Part shown: one piece after another, positions 24,822 to 25,268 of the stretch
Layout of the letters: the number at the start of each line of letters is the position of its first letter
How positions within the stretch are numbered: the stretch's first letter is position 1
Source of the DNA: Bacillota bacterium
GTDB taxonomy: Bacteria; Bacillota; SHA-98; Ch115; JABLXJ01
NCBI GenBank assembly: GCA_013178125.1
Contig: JABLXJ010000007.1
Coordinates: 62,001-126,000 of the forward strand
Direction: 5' to 3'
DNA length: 64,000 nt
Translations under genes and position numbers: made by a program
The notes under the pieces: model-generated
Told to the model about the DNA's origin: nothing
Databases searched by the model: none
The model's input: the letters and a program-made list of their open reading frames with translations, nothing else

Positions 24822-25139
24822 CTGAGCCTCCCCACGGCTAAAGCCGGGGGGTTCCGGCACCCTGTCGCCTCTCCCGGGCTCTCGCCGTCCCCTTGCGGGT
24901 AGGCTACACCATCCCGGGCCCTAGCGACATTCGTTTCCGGTTGCAGGCGAGTCGCTCTAACCCCTAGTGGGGTGGCTAAATAGCTCTTGCGACTTACTTA
25001 CGCCCGATGCCGCCTGCAGGAGCGGCTCCACAACCTCCGACCGATGGTCGGCGCATCGGGCCAAACCTTGGCACCTTGAAGATTTTACGCAGCAAAGGCT
25101 TCCTTGCTGCAACCTCCTATCTTCAGTTTTCAAGGTGCT
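24822..25139 (-). ncRNA. Structured non-coding RNA, omega-RNA/HEARO-like candidate
   Basis: Read on the minus strand, about 315 nt fold into successive stems visible by eye. Stem 1 pairs GCACCUUGAA with UUCAAGGUGC and encloses a second hairpin GCAGCAA/UUGCUGC. Stem 2 pairs GCCCGAUGC with GCAUCGGGC and encloses CGACC/GGUCG and GCCGC/GGCGGC. Stem 3 pairs AGUCGC with GCGACU around CCCC-acua-GGGG. Stem 4 pairs UGUCGC with GCGACA. The terminal hairpin is CCGGC-uuua-GCCG. A sigma-A promoter sits just upstream. No IscB, IsrB or TnpB gene is adjacent, so it would be an orphan RNA. Confidence 0.5.
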
Positions 25140-25145
25140 AGGCAG

Positions 25146-25174
25146 ATTATACCATATTTTACATGGAAAAGCAA
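25146..25174 (-). promoter_or_regulatory. Promoter for the structured RNA
   Basis: On the minus strand, TTGCTT (25169-25174), exactly 17 bases, then a perfect TATAAT (25146-25151). Transcription would start near 25139 and enter the structured region. Confidence 0.6.
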
Positions 25175-25268
25175 CGGGAGAACCGCCTTATCCCCAGCCC
25201 CGAAGGGCGGGGCTTGCGGCGGCTAGATTCTGGTCAGAGGGGAACCAATAACCGGAGGTCGGGTCTAG

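Follow-up and report, generated by a model that had tools for sequence, protein, structure and literature searches.

The window, a 64,000-nucleotide stretch of a Bacillota contig (GenBank JABLXJ010000007.1), contains a compact noncoding region between genes for a CPBP-type membrane protease and an FMN-binding protein. Read along the minus strand of positions 25270 to 24790, it presents in order a TGAC tetranucleotide, a left-border hairpin, a TTGCTT-17-TATAAT promoter sequence, a leader hairpin, a structured stretch, a CCCCGGC-TTTA-GCCG.GGGG hairpin, and a TCAG end (Table 1). The initial annotation, made from the sequence alone, had described an orphan omega-RNA-like RNA with compact GC hairpins at both borders, a terminal CCGGC-ttta-GCCG hairpin, and no nuclease gene. 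The left-border hairpin and the terminal hairpin are both present, and no protein-coding gene, including no nuclease ORF, was detected inside the element. The extent originally given, 24822 to 25222, is correct at its right edge but not at its left, where the true extent, 25232 to 24822, is slightly longer.

Table 1. Features of the element and its surroundings, in window coordinates.
Feature	Position	Strand	Basis or remark
CPBP-type membrane protease gene, neighbor of the element	23754-24794	+	
FMN-binding protein gene, neighbor of the element	25269-25670	+	
TGAC tetranucleotide abutting the left end	25233-25236	-	Shared by most copies at this border; outer flanks differ
Left end (LE), hairpin AGCCCC..GGGGCT inside a GCCGCC..GGCGG outer stem	25180-25232	-	Match to the LE of relatives
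Left-border hairpin AGCCCC-GCCCTTC-GGGGCT	25214-25196	-	Present in the sequence
Predicted promoter TTGCTT-17-TATAAT	25146-25174	-	Placed as the TATAAT ahead of tnpA in autonomous copies; conserved in L036, L003/L005, and L039
Leader with long hairpin (AGCACCTTGAA..TTCAAGGTGCC enclosing GCAGCAAGG..CTTTGCTGC)	25064-25145	-	Remnant between the LE and the omega-RNA
TnpB-type omega-RNA (reRNA) scaffold, 5' part from the tnpB 3' coding end	24822-25063	-	Alignment with autonomous copies, 43 of 45 pairs, covariation
Pseudoknot 5' strand GAGCC	25024-25028	-	Exact complement of 24824-24828, covarying among copies
Right-end terminal hairpin CCCCGGC-TTTA-GCCG.GGGG	24830-24849	-	Sequence, fold, other copies, consensus
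Pseudoknot 3' strand GGCTC, directly before the guide boundary	24824-24828	-	Covarying; placed as -5 to -3 in ISDra2
Putative guide TATACGACTGATTCTACCAC, in the host DNA immediately following the right end	24802-24821	-	Position from IS200/IS605 TnpB biology

A DNA search of related genomes returned a patchwork of partial matches, and the matching loci were then extended. In element numbering (el), which counts down from window position 25240, the query consists of a left end (about el 5 to 61) and a right end (RE; about el 178 to 419). In genomes G017 (locus L038), G009 (L045), G063 (L096), and G327 (L095), these ends surround roughly 2 kb of DNA that carries a Y1 transposase and a TNB-domain TnpB, with a Pfam Y1_Tnp match of 2.8e-44 in L038; besides these, TnpB-linked copies lie at L091, L092, L094, and L100. 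Autonomous copies occur elsewhere in the class (G009) and in the phylum. The window LE shares 77 to 93% identity with the left ends of autonomous copies encoding both TnpA and TnpB (L038, L045, L046, L095, and L096) and of solo copies. The borders of the window element are real, given that most copies have TGAC on the left and TCAG on the right, with unrelated sequence outside; no target duplication was seen flanking it. By analogy with the IS200/IS605 mechanism, TGAC would serve as the insertion target and the TAM. The end hairpins are the same in kind as those of the autonomous copies L038, L045, L095, and L096, insertion is 3' of a short conserved motif (TGAC), there is no transposase gene, and multiple copies are spread across genomes, as in miniature IS605 elements. 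By its anatomy, the 411-nt segment is a miniature, non-autonomous IS200/IS605 (IS605-type) element of the PATE/MITE type. No DNA match to it was found in phage and plasmid collections.

TnpB omega-RNAs are encoded where the 3' end of tnpB meets the right end. The window RNA (25063 to 24822) aligns with precisely this part of the autonomous copies, and it is therefore assigned to the TnpB omega-RNAs (reRNAs) rather than to the HEARO RNAs of IscB or IsrB; in addition, the strand directly before the guide pairs upstream, forming a pseudoknot. The initial estimate of about 315 nt of nested stems was borne out by a 318-nt RNA that folds at -144.7 kcal/mol (z = -3.5), with none of 100 dinucleotide shuffles folding as well. 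A consensus structure of 45 pairs was built with RNAalifold from nine copies, in which 94.8% of the cells are paired, a figure that is inflated because the consensus came from the same sequences. Covariation is stronger evidence for RNA structure than this percentage: the consensus scored 0.230, compared with 0.149 ± 0.012 when shuffled and 0.05 to 0.09 when slid by 1 to 3 columns. The closing helix occurs in three versions among the copies (GAGCC/GGCTC, GAACC/GGTTC, and GATCC/GGATC), and the pairing, diagnostic of the TnpB pseudoknot, is intact in the window copy.

Consensus pairs are retained at 43 of 45 positions in the window copy, at 42 to 45 in autonomous copies, and at 38 to 39 in the solo copies of G008. 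The window RNA carries 71 differences from the autonomous consensus, random placement of which would leave about 30 pairs; placing only the 12 paired-column differences at random would leave about 38 (P = 0.004). This retention shows little structural decay rather than present selection, because much of the divergence, and of the structural conservation, may predate the loss of tnpB. The best reading of the RNA is that of a structurally sound omega-RNA, a predicted TnpB guide without a partner in its genome.

The minus-strand promoter named in the initial annotation is present, with a perfect -10 hexamer (TATAAT at 25151 to 25146; 6/6 to consensus) and a weak -35 hexamer (TTGCTT at 25174 to 25169; 3/6). 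An automatic promoter scan missed it because at least four matches out of six were demanded in each hexamer. Autonomous copies have TATAAT, or a sequence close to it, some 10 nt ahead of the ATG of tnpA and as far from the left end as in the window copy; the simplest reading is therefore that the window promoter is the old tnpA promoter, now ahead of the omega-RNA. The stretch with the leader hairpin was not found in the autonomous copies and has a homologue in L039. Element fragments with the TATAAT promoter were also observed directly upstream of an Hsp20 gene (L039 3387-3521; G003:C26) and directly upstream of or near a thioesterase-like gene (L005 8479-8539; G000:C6). Donation of promoters to genes by such remnants is possible.

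The partners that an element of this kind would depend on were not found in the host genome (G000), whose assembly comprises 54 contigs and is 98.4% complete: neither Y1_Tnp nor a TnpB of the element's subfamily was detected. Because the assembly is divided in this way, an autonomous copy may have been missed. The TnpB family has left a single trace in the genome, a C-terminal fragment of 98 residues from another subfamily (C6:96522-96815). Together with a downstream RNA that matches the Rfam family HgcC at 32 bits, this fragment makes up a second TnpB omega-RNA remnant (G000:C6:96522-97030; L052, about 2520-3042). The window element is the only full-length copy in the genome, other matches being partial or RE-only. 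The initial annotation had proposed looking for copies beside iscB, isrB, or tnpB; copies do exist, and some in other genomes are tnpB-linked, but a second full-length copy in the host genome was not among them.

Four related genomes from which TnpA_Y1 and this TnpB are likewise missing also hold solo copies, and neither a Y1 transposase nor a matching TnpB was detected in G001, G003, G006, G008, or G014. For example, LE, omega-RNA, and RE are joined without a gene between them, as in the window, at three loci of G008, and a shorter solo element of G001 lacks el 121 to 305. When 398 genomes of the phylum were scanned with a covariance model built on the 3' part, 17 of them gave matches, at 29 places in all. 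Nine of these places have a tnpB of the element's family upstream, complete or partial, and at most of the others none was seen. In the host's class, this family has thus been largely reduced to solo copies.

These features can be accommodated by a simple history. An internal deletion in an autonomous LE-tnpA-tnpB-RE element would have fused the LE and the tnpA promoter to the tnpB tail and the RE, which together encode the TnpB omega-RNA. An IS200/IS605 element needs only its ends to be moved by TnpA acting in trans, and when its omega-RNA reads past the right end, the host sequence that follows serves as the guide. A Y1 transposase recognizing both end hairpins could accordingly have moved the present element in trans, and transcription starting at the left-end promoter would carry its omega-RNA past the right end and on into the flank, with TATACGACTGATTCTACCAC as the guide. 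If a related TnpB bound and was loaded with this RNA, it could cleave the empty site, where TGAC precedes the guide sequence, and so favor the retention or restoration of the element. Work by Meers et al. (2023) and Altae-Tran et al. (2021) is reportedly relevant to such trans-acting or standalone omega-RNAs. The best explanation of the whole, in which we have high confidence, is a miniature IS605-type element that probably once moved in trans and is now stranded with a structurally sound omega-RNA. A bolder extension appears unlikely: that the solo omega-RNA is a parasite of parasites, which under its own promoter guides any incoming related TnpB, has its element restored at the empty site by a nuclease that it does not encode, and has kept its structure for that reason.

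Three other explanations were weighed against the stranded element. The least credible, which we regard as very nearly eliminated, is an orphan IscB or IsrB omega-RNA (HEARO). HEARO RNAs are also associated with IS200/IS605, and a true orphan HEARO exists in the same genome; however, the homologous autonomous elements encode a TNB-domain TnpB, and relatives of the window RNA lie at the tnpB 3' end beside the right end, not upstream of an ORF such as iscB or isrB, so that the homology to tnpB 3' ends already refutes this reading. The HEARO model (RF02033) gave no match in the region up to E = 10, a negative that is informative because the same model yields 106.9 bits on the true HEARO. At the gathering threshold, Rfam gave no match over the window; relaxing the limit to E = 10 over the element region added nothing but one weak match to HgcC and chance-level ones. 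The autonomous TnpB omega-RNAs of this family likewise remain below the Rfam thresholds, and the lack of a match at gathering is therefore no evidence against an omega-RNA. The HgcC (RF00062) match covers the same 3' part at 17 bits (21.5 in an autonomous relative and 32 in the other TnpB remnant) and is read as a distant TnpB RNA; these scores suggest that HgcC is itself a TnpB omega-RNA family, built on archaeal members. With a gathering score of 50 for HgcC, the window RNA is not assigned to that family. Of the initial proposal, then, which named IscB, IsrB, and TnpB as well as HEARO, the IS200/IS605 origin and the omega-RNA stand, as the TnpB kind, and HEARO does not; its remark that the absence of any covariance-model hit would count against an omega-RNA is set aside for the reason just given.

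The initial annotation had also offered two fates for the RNA, mobilization in trans or regulatory reuse. The element is indeed non-autonomous, but its present mobilization is not borne out, no Y1 transposase or matching TnpB being detectable. An active MITE, still being moved by an autonomous partner that escaped notice in this strain or its population, could draw on the intact ends of the window copy (TGAC and TCAG included) and on the autonomous copies elsewhere in the class and phylum; with a single full-length copy in the genome and no Y1_Tnp in so complete an assembly, we consider it unlikely. Most likely, the window copy is stranded but structurally intact, and it is probably dormant because its partners are missing from the genome. 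Regulatory reuse, in which the host would have kept the RNA to control a gene, for instance together with a TnpB-like protein that is nuclease-dead, is more improbable still. The retained pairs, the retained promoter, and the same-promoter fragments upstream of other genes would be compatible with it, but the structural conservation may largely predate the loss of tnpB, and no intact TnpB-family protein was found in the genome, only the C-terminal fragment of another subfamily. Orthologous solo RNAs in G006 and G014 are 92% identical, compared with 95.5 to 96.5% for the flanking DNA (one pair); evolving no slower than its flanks, this copy shows no purifying selection, and nothing else came to light in favor of reuse. 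In a second G006/G014 pair, a 98-nt LE/RE, the values are 98% and 96%, and across the two orthologous pairs, purifying selection on solo copies leaves no consistent trace.

The scaffold of a TnpB omega-RNA ends at the transposon boundary (PMC10711439), which places the putative guide in the host DNA beyond the right end. No second target was found beside TGAC among the closest matches to the guide in the host genome; the best, with one mismatch in 16 (C3:96807), has no preceding TGAC, and the guide pattern is not enriched relative to a reversed control. No true empty site was identified either: CPBP orthologues in G004, G005, G008, and G014 (64 to 71%) are without the FMN-binding neighbor in the locus compared, and one related locus of that neighbor, found in genome contigs, is without the element.

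Short elements that have only the ends of IS200/IS605 are known as palindrome-associated transposable elements, or PATEs (PMC7290912). The IS605 PATE of Halanaerobium hydrogeniformans, whose genome has 22 IS605 copies, measures 271 nt; its LE is cut down to 28 nt and its tnpB to the final 58 nt, while the RE, of 160 nt, is whole (PMC7290912). Like it, the window element has a left-end hairpin, no tnpA, a tnpB tail, and a whole right end, codes for no protein, and would have moved in trans; unlike it, the window copy is 411 nt long, retains the left-end promoter, an extra leader hairpin, and the omega-RNA in full with both pseudoknot strands, and is not accompanied by an autonomous relative in its genome. 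The TnpB omega-RNA pseudoknot of ISDra2 arises where bases -5 to -3 pair with a strand upstream of them (PMC10097598). The window RNA resembles the ISDra2 reRNA in a scaffold that ends at the right end before the guide, in its terminal hairpin, and in the predicted pseudoknot between bases just before the guide (-7 to -3 in the window) and an upstream strand, whereas the distance between its pseudoknot strand and the right end is about 206 nt, compared with a 116-nt scaffold in ISDra2, and tnpB is lacking (PMC10097598). PATEs retaining the tnpB tail and right end have thus been described already, and the window element is a well-preserved further example: a protein-free IS605 element that retains a complete predicted TnpB guide RNA, pseudoknot included, under what was probably the tnpA promoter, in a lineage where several genomes hold solo copies only and no detectable transposase. 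Such orphan RNAs go unannotated because Rfam does not cover the family at its thresholds. The element offers a simple natural substrate for asking whether TnpB in trans keeps non-autonomous elements in genomes.

Several other loci deserve mention. The orphan HEARO of the host genome (RF02033; G000:C6:2351-2563, plus strand; L006 2351-2563) is an IscB omega-RNA with no IscB-like ORF seen nearby and no IscB above the cutoff in the genome, just the sort of orphan that the initial annotation envisaged. A large HNH protein in the same genome (open frame of 1,294 amino acids; G000:C15:3632-3943; L120) resembles type II Cas9 and matches the IscB model weakly. At L048 and L099 (G006:C101 and G014:C61), a solo omega-RNA, for which no left end was recognized, has the same 3' flank (guide) and occupies an orthologous place directly after an ADP-ribosylglycohydrolase-like gene. 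At L044 (3163-4403; G001:C85), a comF-like gene is flanked by a left end that keeps the first 30 tnpA codons and, 1.24 kb on, by a right end; upstream lies a helicase gene resembling comFA, whose stop codon is overlapped by the TGAC target. Finally, a 51-nt LE/RE fusion (TGACC..hairpin..GGTTCAG) at L108 (3352-3402; G008:C62) represents about the smallest form that such an element could take.
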